Assembly (NCBI RefSeq): GCF_003290025.1
Contig: NZ_QNHG01000001.1
Location: forward strand, 1,387,319-1,451,318
Direction of reading: 5' to 3'
Length of the DNA stretch: 64,000 nt
From: Pseudogemmobacter bohemicus
GTDB taxonomy: Bacteria > Pseudomonadota > Alphaproteobacteria > Rhodobacterales > Rhodobacteraceae
Shown here piece by piece: positions 46,561-53,416 of the stretch. How positions within the stretch are numbered: the stretch's first letter is position 1; each line of letters begins with the position of its first letter. The notes below the pieces were generated by a model, which did no database searches, was not told where the DNA came from, and saw only the letters and a list, made by a program, of their open reading frames with translations. Position numbers and translations under genes: made by a program.

Positions 46561-46563
46561 CCC

Positions 46564-46690
46564 GCCGGCAATGCCGGCATTCTTACCACCGCTGGCAATG
46601 CCGGCATTCGTACCACAGCCGGCAATGCCGGCATTCGTACCACAGCCGGCAATGCCGGCAATCCTGCCACCGCCGGCATTGCTGGCACTT
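46564..46690 (+). repeat. 27-bp tandem repeat array (about 4.5 units)
   Basis: Units begin at 46564, 46591, 46618, 46645 and 46672 (partial). Each has the core GCCGGCAATGCCGGC, itself self-complementary around AAT, plus a 12-bp variable part (ATTCGTACCACA-type). 27 bp equals 9 codons, so all frames stay open through it. The array lies between the terminator and the HNH gene and could form a series of hairpins. No spacers of unique sequence are present, so it is not CRISPR. Confidence 0.85.
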
Positions 46691-46740: not shown

Positions 46741-47286
46741 ATGGCGATACAAACCCTTGTCCTGAATTCGGATTTCCGCCCGCTTTCGTGCAATCCGCCC
46801 TCCTCCTGGCACTGGAAGGATGCGGTGACGGCCATCATCCTGAACCGGGTTAGCCTTGTGGCCGAATATGACCAGGTGGTGCGCTCTCCCAGCGTGACGA
46901 TGCGGGTGCCGAGCGTGGTGGCGCTGAAGCAATATCAGCGGCTGGATGGCTGGCCGGCCTTTACCCGCTTCAACATCTATTGCCGCGATAAATGGCTCTG
47001 CCAGTATTGCGGCCGGCGGTTTTCCTCGGACGCGCTGACCTTCGACCATGTTCAACCGAGGTCTCGCGGCGGCAAGTCATCCTGGGAGAATATCGTCGCC
47101 GCCTGCGCCCCCTGCAACCATCGCAAGGCGAACCGCACCCCCTCCGAGGCCGGGATGAAGCTCCTGCGCCCGCCTTACACTCCCACCCGCCGCGAACTGG
47201 TCATGGCCGCCCCCCGCTACCCGCAATCGGACGTGCATCACAGCTGGCTCGACTTCCTCTATTGGGACAGCGAGCTGGAAAGCTGA
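46741..47286 (+). CDS. HNH endonuclease family protein
   Basis: The 181-residue protein has an N-terminal VLNSDFRPLSCNPPSSWHWKDAVTAIILNRVSLVAEY region, then the HNH domain: FNIYCRDKWLCQYCGRRFSSDALTFDHVQPRSRGGKSSWENIVAACAPCNHRKANRTP. This gives the two CxxC zinc pairs (CQYC, CAPC) and the H/N/H active site (DHVQP, WENIV, CNHRK). This compact form is a conserved chromosomal protein of alphaproteobacteria; its biological role is not settled. The second IS1380 copy inserted 34 bp downstream of its stop without touching it. Confidence 0.9.
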   Translation: MAIQTLVLNSDFRPLSCNPPSSWHWKDAVTAIILNRVSLVAEYDQVVRSPSVTMRVPSVVALKQYQRLDGWPAFTRFNIYCRDKWLCQYCGRRFSSDALTFDHVQPRSRGGKSSWENIVAACAPCNHRKANRTPSEAGMKLLRPPYTPTRRELVMAAPRYPQSDVHHSWLDFLYWDSELES

Positions 47287-47319: not shown

Positions 47320-49000
47320 CATAACCTGCATTCCCCAAGTGGCGTGTCGTTTGAGGTGAAGATCGCCTGTATCCGAGCGCTAGACAAGGATTTTCTGCCG
47401 CAAGCGGCACCTGCGGTCGCGCAGACTGCTGGATCTGGACGGATCAGACCGCGAAGCCGCTGTTTCCTTGCCCAGGGGCGGCGTTTTTCAGCGCAGCGGA
47501 CAGATCTGTCCAGCCGCTTTCGTTCAGTTTGAGCGTGGATCGCGATCATGCGCATAGCGGTGGCGCTCGCAATCGGCGGATAGCGGCGAGGATGGCGCGT
47601 ACCATCGTGCCGGTGACAGCGACCTCGGCCAGCTGGAAGGTGATGGTGCGGGCGTGACGGACCACACGTGCCCCGATCTTGATCAGCTTCAGTTGCAGGC
47701 TGGTCAACGACCAGTCGGCCATGGCCTCGGGCAGCTCGATGCAGCGCAAGAAGGTGGCCAGGTTGTACGCCAGGGCGTGCAGTTGCAGCCGCACCTCATT
47801 GTCGCGGAACTTCCGGCACGACAGCCGCGTCCAGCGAAAGGCGTATTTGCCCTCTTTGATGTGCTGCTCGGCGGTGCCGCGCTGGTTGTAGAACCGCACC
47901 ACCCAGTCCGGCTCCATCGGCAGGTTGGTGACGATGAAGCCGACACGCGGGAACAGTTCGCCCGGATGCCATTCGATCTTGGCGATCACCCGGCGTTCCT
48001 TGTCCCAGGACGCCGCCTGATACTCGAATTCCTCGAAGAACCGCTTGACCTTGGTCAGTGACGGCCGCCCGACAGGGCGCGTTAGCCGATGCGCGATCTT
48101 GTCCTTGAGGACCGCGTTTGCGGGCAGCCGGATGGCGTAGAAGAACCGCGCTTCTTCCAATCGCTCATAGATCGCCGGGATCGCGTAGGCAGCATCGGCC
48201 CGGAAGAACCTGCCACCAAGGTCGCGCTCCGCGTAGCGCGCAATGACGGGGTCGAGAACATCACGCCAGCCATCGGCGCTGTGGACGTTGCCATGGCGCA
48301 GGGCGCAGCGTTCCAGCATCCCGAACTGGTTGAACAGAAAGTTGGGGTGATAGCAGCTACAGTCGAAATGGCCATTCCAGGCAGACCCTTCCTGGTCGCC
48401 ATGGGTCGGGCTGACCGAGCTGTCCATGTCCAGAACGATGTACTTCAGCCCGTTACGGTCATGGAACCGGTCGATCCATTGCCCGTTCAGGTCGGCCAGC
48501 GCGGCACGGTTCCCGGCCAGAGCCAGCGTCTCGGTCTCGAACCGTCCCATCTGCGATGCCGAGGCCGCTTGTGCATCGACCGCTCTGCCGCCGACAACTT
48601 GGCGCATGACCGGATCGCAGGCGAGACGGTTGGCGTCGTTGACATCCTCGTATCCGGCCAGCCGCCCAAAGACTGATTGCCGGAACAGGCCGTCGAGCCG
48701 ATGGACCGTGTTCTTGCCAGAGCGAGTATCGCGCAGCGCCGCTGACGCCAAATCGGACAACCCGAGCGCGTCATCAAGCTCGCGCATCACCAGAAGGCCG
48801 CCGTCGGAACTGAGCTGCGTGCCGCGAAATTCCAGCCGCACGCGAGGGTCGAAATCCACCCGATCTGCCCGTTGCAAGCCCGCACCCTCTGGGTGATCCA
48901 TGAAACGCGCCCCTCGCAGCCTTCAACACCATGTTTTATATAGGAAATATAATGGTCAGGACAGCGAAATCAGCGCCTTACTTGGGAAATGTGGGCATAA
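47320..49000 (-). mobile_element. IS1380-family insertion sequence, copy 2, with 5-bp target duplication
   Basis: The element itself is 47325-48995 (1671 bp), flanked by CATAA at 47320-47324 and 48996-49000. Ends are the same imperfect 16-bp inverted repeats as copy 1. This copy shows the normal transposition footprint and thereby defines the element's true ends. Both copies face the same way, about 44.6 kb apart. Confidence 0.95.
47546..48901 (-). CDS. IS1380-family transposase (copy 2)
   Basis: 451 residues, translation identical to that of the copy at 2968-4323: same first Asp (IVLDMDSSV), second Asp (FRADAAYA) and late Glu (AEQHIKEGK). Because this copy has intact ends and a target duplication, it probably represents a functional, autonomous insertion sequence. 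Sequence identity between the two copies suggests that one gave rise to the other recently, or that gene conversion keeps them alike. The transposase reads toward the HNH gene. Confidence 0.93.
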   Translation of the reverse strand: MDHPEGAGLQRADRVDFDPRVRLEFRGTQLSSDGGLLVMRELDDALGLSDLASAALRDTRSGKNTVHRLDGLFRQSVFGRLAGYEDVNDANRLACDPVMRQVVGGRAVDAQAASASQMGRFETETLALAGNRAALADLNGQWIDRFHDRNGLKYIVLDMDSSVSPTHGDQEGSAWNGHFDCSCYHPNFLFNQFGMLERCALRHGNVHSADGWRDVLDPVIARYAERDLGGRFFRADAAYAIPAIYERLEEARFFYAIRLPANAVLKDKIAHRLTRPVGRPSLTKVKRFFEEFEYQAASWDKERRVIAKIEWHPGELFPRVGFIVTNLPMEPDWVVRFYNQRGTAEQHIKEGKYAFRWTRLSCRKFRDNEVRLQLHALAYNLATFLRCIELPEAMADWSLTSLQLKLIKIGARVVRHARTITFQLAEVAVTGTMVRAILAAIRRLRAPPLCA

Positions 49001-49156: not shown

Positions 49157-49502
49157 ATGCTACAACCTGTAGGGGACATGCGTAGGCGGGTTGTTAGCGC
49201 CTTCAAGAATGTCGGTTCCCTCGGCTTCGTCGCCCGGACCCTCGACGAAGATTGCGATCTGCACGAAGCAGTCCTAATCAAAGATGACCTCATCTACGGC
49301 ACGATCGTCACCGTCCATGCTGGTCAACACGAGGCATCACCGCGCTTATCGATGACGGCATCATCGAGCGGAAGGACATGCTGCTCACTGCTGCTGGTGC
49401 CGCAGACGCGACATGGAGTAAGTTCTTCCAACAGTTCGATTCACACCGTCCGGTTATTGAATGCTTCAAGGCCAAGGCGTCCGCATTGCCAAGCGGACGG
49501 TG
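49157..49502 (+). pseudogene. Unidentified coding remnant with a frameshift
   Basis: A first frame reads FKNVGSLGFVARTLDEDCDL then LIYGTIVTVHAG. In a second frame shifted near 49330 the sequence continues ITALIDDGIIERKDMLL, then FFQQFDSHRPVIECFKAKA, to a TGA at 49500-49502. Codon use suggests one decayed gene, but I do not recognise the protein. It lies directly after the IS1380 copy. The rest of 49001-49686 shows nothing else. Confidence 0.4.
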
Positions 49503-49686: not shown

Positions 49687-50520
49687 TCATAGGTATCGAC
49701 GGTAATCGTTGCTCACCGATTCACCCTCATTCAGGTGCTTCAGCACCGCACCAACCGAACGTGCCGCCCTAATGGGAATTGGTAGGTGCTGGTTCATCTG
49801 GGTTGAGTTCCAGTTTATTTTTTAACGAAAAATTTCCTCCGCCAACTGCTCTATCGTGCTGTCTCCGCCTGGGTGGAGGCAAATTAGAAGTGGGTTCGGG
49901 TCGTATGCTCCTGGGCAGGTTCCATAATATAGTATGCTGCCAGTCATATAAAGAATTCCATTTTTTCCAATCTCAACGTAGGTTCCTCTCATAACCGGGT
50001 AATCGCCATAGCGGAGAACGCGAACGTCATAGGGTTCTTGCACCCACACAAGATCTCGGAATTCAATGCCTTCGGCGTCTAAAGCCTCAAAAATGCCATC
50101 TGCCTCCTCCTCGCGAAAACGCGATGTCTTCATCACCACAACGCGGGCTGGCGTTGCTCTATGATGTGCTCTGTAAGCCGAAAGAACGCTCTCGACCAAA
50201 CTACGAGCATCTTCTTGGGTCATATAGGAGTGGCGGCCTCGGCTCTCGGTGTGGGCACGCTTTCCCTTTAGGATGAAGCCTCGACCACGCTCATCGAACA
50301 TTTGTGCAGCACTTGTGAAGAGCTGCTGCCCGCCGACCTCCCTGTAAAAGCTTACACCCACGTAGCAAGCCGTGTATTCCGCTTCGCGAGGTAATCGTCG
50401 CCAAGGAATGCGGCCGCTGCCCTTGTAGTAAAGCGTGGTCTTTAGGTTCCAGGTCCGGTCTGCGAGTGACTGAATGTCACGAGAGCAGCTCTCTTTCACT
50501 TTTCTTGAGACCTTGCCCAG
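49687..50520 (-). pseudogene. Prokaryotic Argonaute (long-B type), PIWI-domain remnant
   Basis: The minus-strand frame reads [74 protein letters not shown] and [20 protein letters not shown], the sequential blocks of a long pAgo PIWI domain. At 49824 an in-frame TAA interrupts it, yet the conserved C-terminus follows in phase ([24 protein letters not shown]), ending at 49687. The catalytic tetrad positions are not acidic (GVSFY in place of GxD), as in the inactive long-B pAgos such as that of Rhodobacter sphaeroides. N, PAZ and MID domains are absent: the 5' part is replaced near 50510 by unrelated sequence. Confidence 0.75.
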
Positions 50521-50819
50521 AAGCGAACGAACGTGCGCCGCACGACGGGAAGGCCGAGCTGTTCGCCGCACAGTTGAAACATGTCACCGGGCAGCGCTGC
50601 CATGGTGTTGGTTGCGATATCACGCGCATTGGTGCCGGTGAGTTCGGCCAGGACCAGGCCAGCGCTCGACGGGCGATATCTCCCCGGCTCGAAGGCATCT
50701 GACAGCCGAAAGTTATGATCGGCCATCAGTTTGAGCAGGTCGAACGCCTTGACCTGGTCGGGGACATGCAATTCGGCAAGAACAGCATTATGACGGCGGC
50801 AGACGACTACGGGGCGCAA
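50496..50819 (-). other. Unrecognised 107-residue frame abutting the Argonaute remnant
   Basis: Open frame with plausible composition ([56 protein letters not shown]), ending just inside the Argonaute remnant in another phase. I do not recognise the family and there is no ribosome binding site, so it may be the 3' part of another broken gene brought here by recombination. Confidence 0.35.
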
Positions 50820-50901
50820 CAGCCAAGACCAGCGAAGGCGCGCCGCGAACGGTCTGACGAAACATCAGGGGGTCAAAATTGCTCGCCGATACACAGCGAA
50901 A

Positions 50902-50949
50902 AGGCAACGGATCGACGGCATCGCAGGGCGGCTGCTGGAAATGGGTTAG
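50902..50949 (+). pseudogene. C-terminal scrap of an ADP-ribosylglycohydrolase gene
   Basis: Fifteen codons plus TAG read RQRIDGIAGRLLEMG, identical in protein to the end of the intact gene at 6906-7820. The DNA differs at several third positions, so it comes from a related gene and not from a recent copy. Nothing of the gene remains upstream. Confidence 0.75.
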
Positions 50950-51011
50950 AGTGGGACGAGTAGTTCAAAGCAGCTCTTGGCCAAGCACGGCATCTGGATT
51001 ACCCAAGCCTC

Positions 51012-52055
51012 ATGGCTGTTACACTCATCTCACTTCGTGATCTGGCAGAGGCGCGCTTCGATGACATCATCGATGTGCGGTCGCCGTCAGAGTTTGCCGC
51101 CGATCATCTGCCGGGTGCGGTCAATTTGCCTGTCCTGGATGATGAGGAACGTGCCCGTGTCGGCACCATCTATAAGCAGATATCGCCCTTTGATGCGCGC
51201 AAACTGGGGGCTGCGCTGATTTCGCGCAATGTCGCGGGGCATCTTGAGGGGCCACTTGCCGACAAACCGGGCGGCTGGCGGCCCCTGATATATTGCTGGA
51301 GGGGCGGACAGCGTTCGGGTTCCATGGCCACGATCCTGTCTCAGATCGGCTGGCGGGCCGAGATTGTTCACGGCGGCTATAAATCATGGCGCGGACTGGT
51401 TGTCAGAACGCTGGAAGCGGATCCTCCGGCGCGTGTTATCCTGCTCGATGGCAATACCGGCTCCGCCAAGACAGAGCTTCTTCACCTTCTTGCGGTGCGT
51501 GGCATTCAGATCATCGATCTTGAGGGGCTTGCGAACCACAGGGGATCGCTCTTCGGCAACCGGGGGCCGCAACCATCGCAGAGGATGTTCGAGGGCAGGC
51601 TCGCGCAGGTTCTGGCGGATCTGGACCCCACGCGCCCGGTGGTGATCGAGGCGGAAAGCTCGGCCATCGGCCAGTGCCAGATTCCGGCACGGCTCTGGAA
51701 AGCGATGTGCGGCGCGGCGAGGATCGAGGTGCAGGCTCCGGCAGATGAGCGCGCCCGCTATCTTGCCCGCACCTATGCCGAGCTGACGGCCGCCCCCGAC
51801 AGGCTGGCAATGACAATAGATCAGCTGCGTCCATTTCATTCGGCGGAACATATTGCCGAATGGCATATCATGGCTGCGCGCTCGGATTATGTTTCTCTCG
51901 CTGAATCTCTGATCTTAGCCCATTACGATCCTCGCTATGCGAAGCACCGGGCTCGAAGCGGTATTTCCCGTCAGGTCGTCTTTACTGAAAACCTCGATGC
52001 GGCCAGGCTGATTTCAGCAGCAGACCGGCTGACTGCGGAAGTGCTGCGCGCGTAG
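51012..52055 (+). CDS. mnmH: tRNA 2-selenouridine/geranyl-2-thiouridine synthase
   Basis: The 347-residue enzyme modifies 2-thiouridine at the tRNA wobble base. The N-terminal rhodanese domain has DDIIDVRSPSEFAADHLPGAVNLPVLDDEERARVGTIYKQ, with the active Cys in LIYCWRGGQRSGSMATIL. The C-terminal P-loop domain has ILLDGNTGSAKTELLHLL and IDLEGLANHRGSLFGNRG. Length and motifs are those of intact SelU/MnmH. No selD is nearby. It is the only apparently intact gene in the decayed 49-53 kb region. The start lacks a strong ribosome binding site; no better in-frame start is seen. Confidence 0.92.
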   Translation: MAVTLISLRDLAEARFDDIIDVRSPSEFAADHLPGAVNLPVLDDEERARVGTIYKQISPFDARKLGAALISRNVAGHLEGPLADKPGGWRPLIYCWRGGQRSGSMATILSQIGWRAEIVHGGYKSWRGLVVRTLEADPPARVILLDGNTGSAKTELLHLLAVRGIQIIDLEGLANHRGSLFGNRGPQPSQRMFEGRLAQVLADLDPTRPVVIEAESSAIGQCQIPARLWKAMCGAARIEVQAPADERARYLARTYAELTAAPDRLAMTIDQLRPFHSAEHIAEWHIMAARSDYVSLAESLILAHYDPRYAKHRARSGISRQVVFTENLDAARLISAADRLTAEVLRA

Positions 52056-52679: not shown

Positions 52680-53416
52680 CTATCTCATCCAACGGCTCTT
52701 GGGTATTCGATCATAACCCTCAATAGCAATCCCCATCCGATAGCTTACCCTTGACGCCCATCCTGGAGCGATAACTCTTGCAATTTCAATTATTTCCATA
52801 GGATCACTTGCCGGATACCCCCTAGATGACTCATAGGCCTTCCACACAGCCTTTGGAAATGGAAGTGGGAATAGTGATGCTACAAACGCAGCTTGAACCT
52901 TGTTAAGGCGTGATGCATTCAAATTAAATATCTTAAGAGCCGAAATTTCGCAACCCTCAATACGATACCCCAAGTATGCATTATGAATATAGTAATTAAA
53001 AGTACTTTTCTTCGAAACATGCATTCCCAATAAAATCGCAAGAATAATTTCACGAAGTTTTCGCGAAACTGTACGCTCATATCTTCCAAGTGATATCCTT
53101 ACCACCTGCTGATCAATCGTGCTAATTCCGCTTATCTTCCCGCGAAAAATCAGGCGGCGAATTGCCCTTATTCTTGATCGAAACTCGAATCCTTTATGCT
53201 AAAAAATCGCCTGCCCTCCAAACATAACGTTGCAACTTCAAAGTTTGTCAAATCGACATCGAAGGCCGATATGGAGTGACCACAAGACCAAGAATTATCG
53301 ATACTGTCAGAAATATCTATTTTTATGTTATCTATATTCACATTGAGGGAAATAAGGAAATTTTTAATTCCCAATTTTACGATTGGACCGCGAATACTGC
53401 TTTCACGCAATCTCAA
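52680..53416 (-). pseudogene. GT51 peptidoglycan transglycosylase-like gene, frameshifted
   Basis: Two minus-strand frames make one protein. 53416-53168 ends in FEVATLCLEGRRFFS. After a shift near 53200, the other frame (from about 53195 to 52680) continues HKGFEFRSRIRAIRRLIFRGKI, then STIDQQVVRISLGRYERTVSRKLREIILAILLG and YIHNAYLGYRIEGCEISALKIF. These are the GT51 motifs: E-G/D-R-R-F with the catalytic Glu, GxSTIxQQ-x-V-R, RKxREIxLA, and the Y-x-N-x-Y-x-G motif. No transpeptidase domain follows. GC is far below the core. It is an accessory transglycosylase, now inactivated. Confidence 0.65.

Follow-up and report, generated by a model that had tools for sequence, protein, structure and literature searches.

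A PIWI-domain remnant of a SPARDA-type short Argonaute, very probably a pseudogene, in Pseudogemmobacter bohemicus

An Argonaute-like sequence interrupted by an in-frame stop lies within the window analysed here (64,000 nucleotides of the Pseudogemmobacter bohemicus genome), and raises the question of which kind of Argonaute it derives from, what has been lost, and whether the remainder does anything. Homology to intact Argonautes starts at 50517 with some queries and at 50511 with others and extends on the minus strand to 49690, with E values of 1e-119 to 1e-133, and covers approximately residues 211-486 of the intact protein. It ends within 3 bases of the interval (49687-50520) in which the initial annotation had placed an Argonaute PIWI domain. 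The TAA described there as lying ahead of a still-conserved C-terminus (49824-49822, minus strand) is confirmed by reading of the frame. All 70 distinct full-length relatives have Thr in this column; the column before it is Leu in 67 and Met in three. The window sequence is one codon shorter at this site than the full-length relatives. Downstream of the TAA, the unchanged frame gives 44 further residues (49690-49821, minus strand) and then a second, natural stop. This conserved C-terminus corresponds to the region of NbaAgo that includes the guide-RNA contacts S447, N451 and R459 (numbering of PMC12205087). The longest open frame (49822-50571, minus strand) has a GTG start and encodes 249 amino acids, of which the first ~20 come from TniQ debris read out of frame and not from Argonaute.

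Among solved structures, the best match is to NbaAgo, the 485-residue short Argonaute of the SPARDA system; in the PDB search the alignment gives E 4.8e-108, runs ungapped through 228 residues and has 154 of them identical. The top three PDB chains found with the fragment are Argonautes of 482-485 residues, led by 9jsb, the guide-bound NbaSPARDA (PMC12205087); the next chains have 471-541 residues, several of them named as short pAgo, and TtAgo appears at E 2e-4. A seven-sequence family profile (A1) gives the same picture along its whole length, and aligns end-to-end with the 482-485-residue chains. The PADLOC pAgo model matches the fragment at 1.1e-102, and the three best PADLOC profiles are common to the fragment, NbaAgo (locus L159) and the Novosphingobium Argonaute. 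The PADLOC models and PDB chains together place the fragment firmly in the Argonaute family. Identity in PIWI is 62-70% to 12 intact Argonautes, with a maximum of 71% among the relatives from the genome scan and plasmids. The Aminobacter and Novosphingobium Argonautes, each encoded directly after a DUF4365 gene, are 69.8% identical to the fragment. Pfam and NCBIfam gave no Argonaute match for the fragment, and two full-length relatives that were scanned also fall under the Pfam Piwi cut-off. An NCBIfam match to ispH (E 0.0036, far below its cut-off) was taken as chance. By sequence, the fragment falls among the SPARDA short pAgos, which include NbaAgo.

Short Argonautes lack the N and PAZ domains, so the missing pieces are the MID half and the DREN-APAZ gene; the N-PAZ-MID half proposed earlier as lost included an N-PAZ that was never there. 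That proposal went with assignment of the fragment to the long-B, RsAgo-like group, as a gene undergoing loss. The long-B pAgos (e.g., RsAgo and EcBPAN) are described as combining an inactive PIWI with an effector (PMC6299218, PMC10620215), and a lone PIWI could pass for one of them. However, catalytic inactivity of PIWI is reported for every long-B and every short pAgo (PMC6299218), so this property cannot separate the two groups. In the PDB lists to E 10, for the fragment and for the family profile, SPARDA and short Argonautes are followed by TtAgo and a few long Argonautes matched weakly, and no chain in either list was recognised as RsAgo. As judged from published descriptions rather than direct comparison, long-B pAgos are four-domain proteins whose three main effectors sit downstream of the Argonaute (PMC10620215). 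In contrast, the intact relatives of the remnant are MID-PIWI proteins of ~480-490 amino acids with a DUF4365-APAZ gene upstream. Operons of a pAgo and DUF4365-APAZ are classed as S2B, and the nuclease systems are named SPARDA, in the introduction of PMC12205087. The short-Argonaute matches and the architecture of the intact relatives therefore show the long-B label to be wrong, and we give that origin almost no credence. The correction of family names the partner to be sought and changes what counts as missing.

Intact loci were sought in relatives, as the initial annotation had suggested, and were found, with a DUF4365/DREN gene upstream of the Argonaute. The plasmid search matched 93 records at 95 places. 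In seven of the ten records that were examined (H1-H8, H10, H13) the gene just upstream is annotated as DUF4365, and one record is without annotation. Plasmids of Alphaproteobacteria (Aminobacter pAA03, Novosphingobium p3, Mesorhizobium, Beijerinckia and Methylocystis) encode SPARDA Argonautes of the same family as the remnant but, unlike it, with DUF4365 and Argonaute annotated as adjacent, unbroken genes. The Phaeobacter M633 plasmid has DUF4365 followed by a second, separate CDS. Scanning the genomes with just the fragment as query turned up no relative; when the scan was based on an alignment, 88 were obtained and 80 of them retained. In 71 of these the Argonaute runs in one frame from residue 1-4 to residue 485-486, on the scale of a short Argonaute with 486 residues, which is not an N-PAZ-MID-PIWI arrangement, and at 67 of the 71 DREN is likewise full-length and in one frame. 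SPARDA was not found as phage cargo: no match to an intact Argonaute was present in 50,697 phage records, and the 32 stretches of viral contigs that fit a pattern encoded no relative.

Nothing in the window or in the rest of the genome (16 contigs, with a completeness rating of 100%) matches residues 1-210, on the MID side. Nor does the DREN-APAZ (DUF4365) partner have a significant match in either, in line with the earlier remark that no partner nuclease is visible beside the remnant. The same DREN query finds matches in 13 of 394 genomes of the family (some weakly, over the APAZ part alone), showing that the search works. Thus, the PIWI is nearest to characterised SPARDA Argonautes, whereas MID and the upstream DREN(DUF4365)-APAZ gene are absent, and we describe the feature as a remnant of a SPARDA system, not as a SPARDA system.

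At the 5' break (50517-50520) the PIWI frame runs into scrambled debris of a TniQ transposon gene. One piece (50520-50651, minus strand; TniQ residues ~59-101) adjoins the break and another (50682-50924, minus strand; residues ~90-179, 43% identity) lies further upstream, so that the two are in swapped order. The TniQ relative was matched in three of 393 other genomes of the family (G040, G333 and G375). In G040 it is a TniQ by Pfam (4.5e-15) with an adjoining TniB gene; in G333 a comparable pair of neighbours was seen by eye, and both TniQ matches are obtained again with its TniQ-like frame. No TniQ gene, nor one like the Paracoccus gene described below, was found by tblastn (E 1e-4) beside the 80 other SPARDA loci, within up to ~3 kb on each side, and the TniQ link therefore looks local. 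A DUF1403/ScpB origin of the upstream debris, hinted at by a Sulfitobacter plasmid, was rejected, as the best DUF1403 match (E 0.071) lies elsewhere in the window.

The fragment departs from positions that its relatives hold constant. Compared with 12 intact relatives, 22 of 147 invariant positions are changed (20 substitutions, one gap and one stop), whereas the maximum for an intact Argonaute is 8 of 155. Against 70 distinct full-length Argonautes (71 genome-scan loci and 8 plasmid proteins, with identical ones merged), 9 of 106 invariant positions are changed, the stop included, while among those 70 the maximum is 2 of 108 and the median 0. With a 97% threshold the fragment has 15 of 130 positions changed and the full-length Argonautes at most 3. 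Partial copies elsewhere, scored at the strict threshold, have 0-4 changes compared with 9 in the remnant (L119, 2/92; L133, 0/106; L152, 2/106; L155, 1/106; L156, 0/76; L163, 4/77). The nearest is L163, truncated where its contig stops, with 7/95 at the 97% threshold.

Evidence from rates is mixed. The terminal branch of the fragment is the longest of 75 in the tree, but once the tree is rooted at its midpoint, at least six sequences have a greater root-to-tip distance, which counts against decay. Relative-rate tests gave a significant excess in four of five comparisons with Phaeobacter as outgroup (the exception being Rhizobium, p 0.098) and in one of five with Bradyrhizobium, and none of ten control pairs was significant, all with the Phaeobacter outgroup. 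The placement of the fragment is poorly supported (46% in one tree and, in another, 70% for a group that also contains Phaeobacter-type Argonautes), which casts doubt on Phaeobacter as an outgroup, and we use the rate counts as supporting evidence only. The Phaeobacter-based excess amounts to 14-27 amino-acid changes, for which ~0.9-1.7 stops would be expected at 0.062 nonsense per missense change; the single stop seen fits recent decay. Synonymous sites are saturated, leaving dN/dS undefined for every comparison with the fragment, and the relative-rate and invariant-position counts were used instead. Counting against a pseudogene, a dead gene would not usually keep a frame of 276 codons with a single stop, and most of the NbaAgo contact positions that were checked (13 of 16) are identical. 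We nevertheless conclude, from sequence comparisons, that the decay is real and that the feature is very probably a pseudogene of a SPARDA-type short Argonaute. The earlier reading of a degenerate Argonaute PIWI and of a defence gene being lost stands, but for a SPARDA gene and not for one of long-B type.

What the intact ancestor did can be predicted from its relatives and from NbaSPARDA (the short Argonaute and DREN-APAZ of Novosphingopyxis baekryungensis; PDB 9JSB, 9JSP, 9JSZ and 9JT2). According to PMC12205087, NbaSPARDA takes up a guide RNA with 5'-AU, reaches full activation with DNA targets of 19-21 nt, and forms Argonaute filaments that lead to a DREN tetramer, the active collateral nuclease. 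By analogy, a guide RNA bound by MID and PIWI would have recognised invading DNA, the complexes would have stacked into filaments via PIWI and MID contacts, and DREN would have tetramerised and degraded nucleic acids, with death or arrest of the cell as the outcome. The remnant resembles NbaSPARDA in its PIWI half and top PADLOC profile, with 13 of 16 checked NbaAgo contact positions (221-360) identical and changes at G254A, F256Y and K324R. It differs from NbaSPARDA in having no MID before residue ~211, no DREN-APAZ, a stop at residue ~441 and TniQ debris at its 5' side. Lacking are the guide-contact residues that precede ~211 (W159, N181, F182, R183, K187 and W201), and a translation ending at the TAA also loses S447, N451 and R459. 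The locus has lost the DREN-APAZ gene and the MID half, and what remains adjoins TniQ debris; the junction is seen directly, the manner of its origin being the conjectural part. The drift of the remainder and its in-frame stop are likewise seen in the window, and probably came after that loss. With the partner DREN nuclease absent, together with most of the guide pocket in MID and the guide contacts at the C-terminus, the remnant is expected neither to sense nor to kill. Most likely the remnant is inert.

Could the PIWI fragment have been kept as a stand-alone product, for example as a decoy that caps the SPARDA filaments of incoming plasmids? The open frame is long (249 amino acids), and of the residues named as the PIWI-PIWI interface in PMC12205087 (E253, R285, R287, K324 and E360), all are unchanged except K324, where the change to R is conservative. 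One other remnant keeps mainly its PIWI side (G370/L155; residues 125-486, no DREN). However, invariant positions are lost in excess, the start of the frame falls in out-of-frame transposon debris and the TAA cuts off the end of the domain, and no comparable match exists in the other 12 genomes of the genus (the pAgo in one of them is a different one, 30% identical). We consider retention of a stand-alone product very unlikely. Its specific form, a 249-residue protein that is without the guide pocket yet retains the PIWI-PIWI filament face, and that would inhibit SPARDA systems on incoming plasmids by capping their filaments so that the host tolerates those plasmids, has slighter prospects still. 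Extremely improbable, too, is a TAA introduced by sequencing or assembly error into an otherwise working gene. There is a single stop in the frame and one assembly is available, as such an error would allow, but MID and DREN are also missing, invariant residues are changed and transposon debris lies 5' of the frame. In all likelihood, what is left is a plain dead gene, from a known two-gene self-destruct defence against phages and plasmids.

Other SPARDA loci are also broken. After setting aside from the 80 loci those incomplete at a contig end (L124, L129, L153, L157, L162 and L163), seven of 74 resolvable loci in the genome scan are broken (L094, L119, L133, L151, L152, L155 and L156), a count in which frameshifts in draft assemblies may be errors and which cannot include loci without PIWI, since the scan needs PIWI motifs. 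The 394 family genomes hold, by reading of the match tables, 12 DREN-type loci, excluding matches to an APAZ-only partner (G093, G343, G150, G216 and second loci in G241 and G262) and more distant pAgos. Six are intact (two in G109, and one each in G173, G241, G262 and G377), five are broken (G000, which is the genome studied here, G370, G161, G030 and G231) and one, in G201, ends at a contig end. The two sets overlap, as L155 and the G370 locus (Tropicimonas IMCC34011) match in the length of their contig and in position. The broken loci (in Tropicimonas IMCC34011, G161, G030 and G231, and on the Roseomonas OT10 plasmid) have a partial Argonaute and/or partner, with mobile elements in some. 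On the Roseomonas OT10 plasmid both SPARDA genes are interrupted by or adjoin IS5. In G161 (L080, 2280-6483) an open, full-length DREN is present, and Argonaute residues 1-13 and 476-491 flank a transposon-like insert whose frames we take to be IS66-like. Of the several SPARDA loci seen to be broken, that in the window is one well-resolved case in which decay has removed a defence module. Such loci are compatible with self-killing systems that are gained by transfer and often discarded, although a cost is not proven. Decay of SPARDA was not found as the topic of a paper title or abstract opening in a partial literature collection.

Several other features lie around the remnant. A frameshifted small-gene remnant in two frames (49178-49473, plus strand) resembles the Paracoccus hypothetical protein WGR62771.1. 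An IS1380-family element (47324-48995, minus strand) is flanked by a 4-base duplication, CATA. The genome has eight copies that are 99-100% alike, another of which begins near window base 2750; this suggests that the insertion is recent and a separate event, probably a later one. Over its last ~100 bases the element shares 97-99% identity with sequences on plasmids of Sphingopyxis and of enterobacteria, and the feature listed under the enterobacterial matches is EreA2. On the other side, mnmH (tRNA 2-selenouridine synthase; 51012-52055, plus strand) is intact, and DNA similarity to two of five genus relatives starts at 50975, just 5' of this gene. When window positions 38001-64000 were compared by blastn with 18-19 kb from the five genus relatives, mnmH and, in one, a tRNA were matched, and nothing else. 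One of the 12 other genomes of the genus encodes a different pAgo frame of 518 amino acids (L002, 1303-2859), 30% identical over the match and with a frame upstream. A tandem array (46562-46687) of 4.7 copies of a 27-base unit, with 89% matches, is located just upstream of an HNH-like gene (46741-47286) for which all NCBIfam matches are below cut-off. Between mnmH and tRNA-Val, a short frame (52680-53105) matches part of a PBP1A-family profile (5-82 to 65-142 of 535) and probably encodes a truncated transglycosylase.
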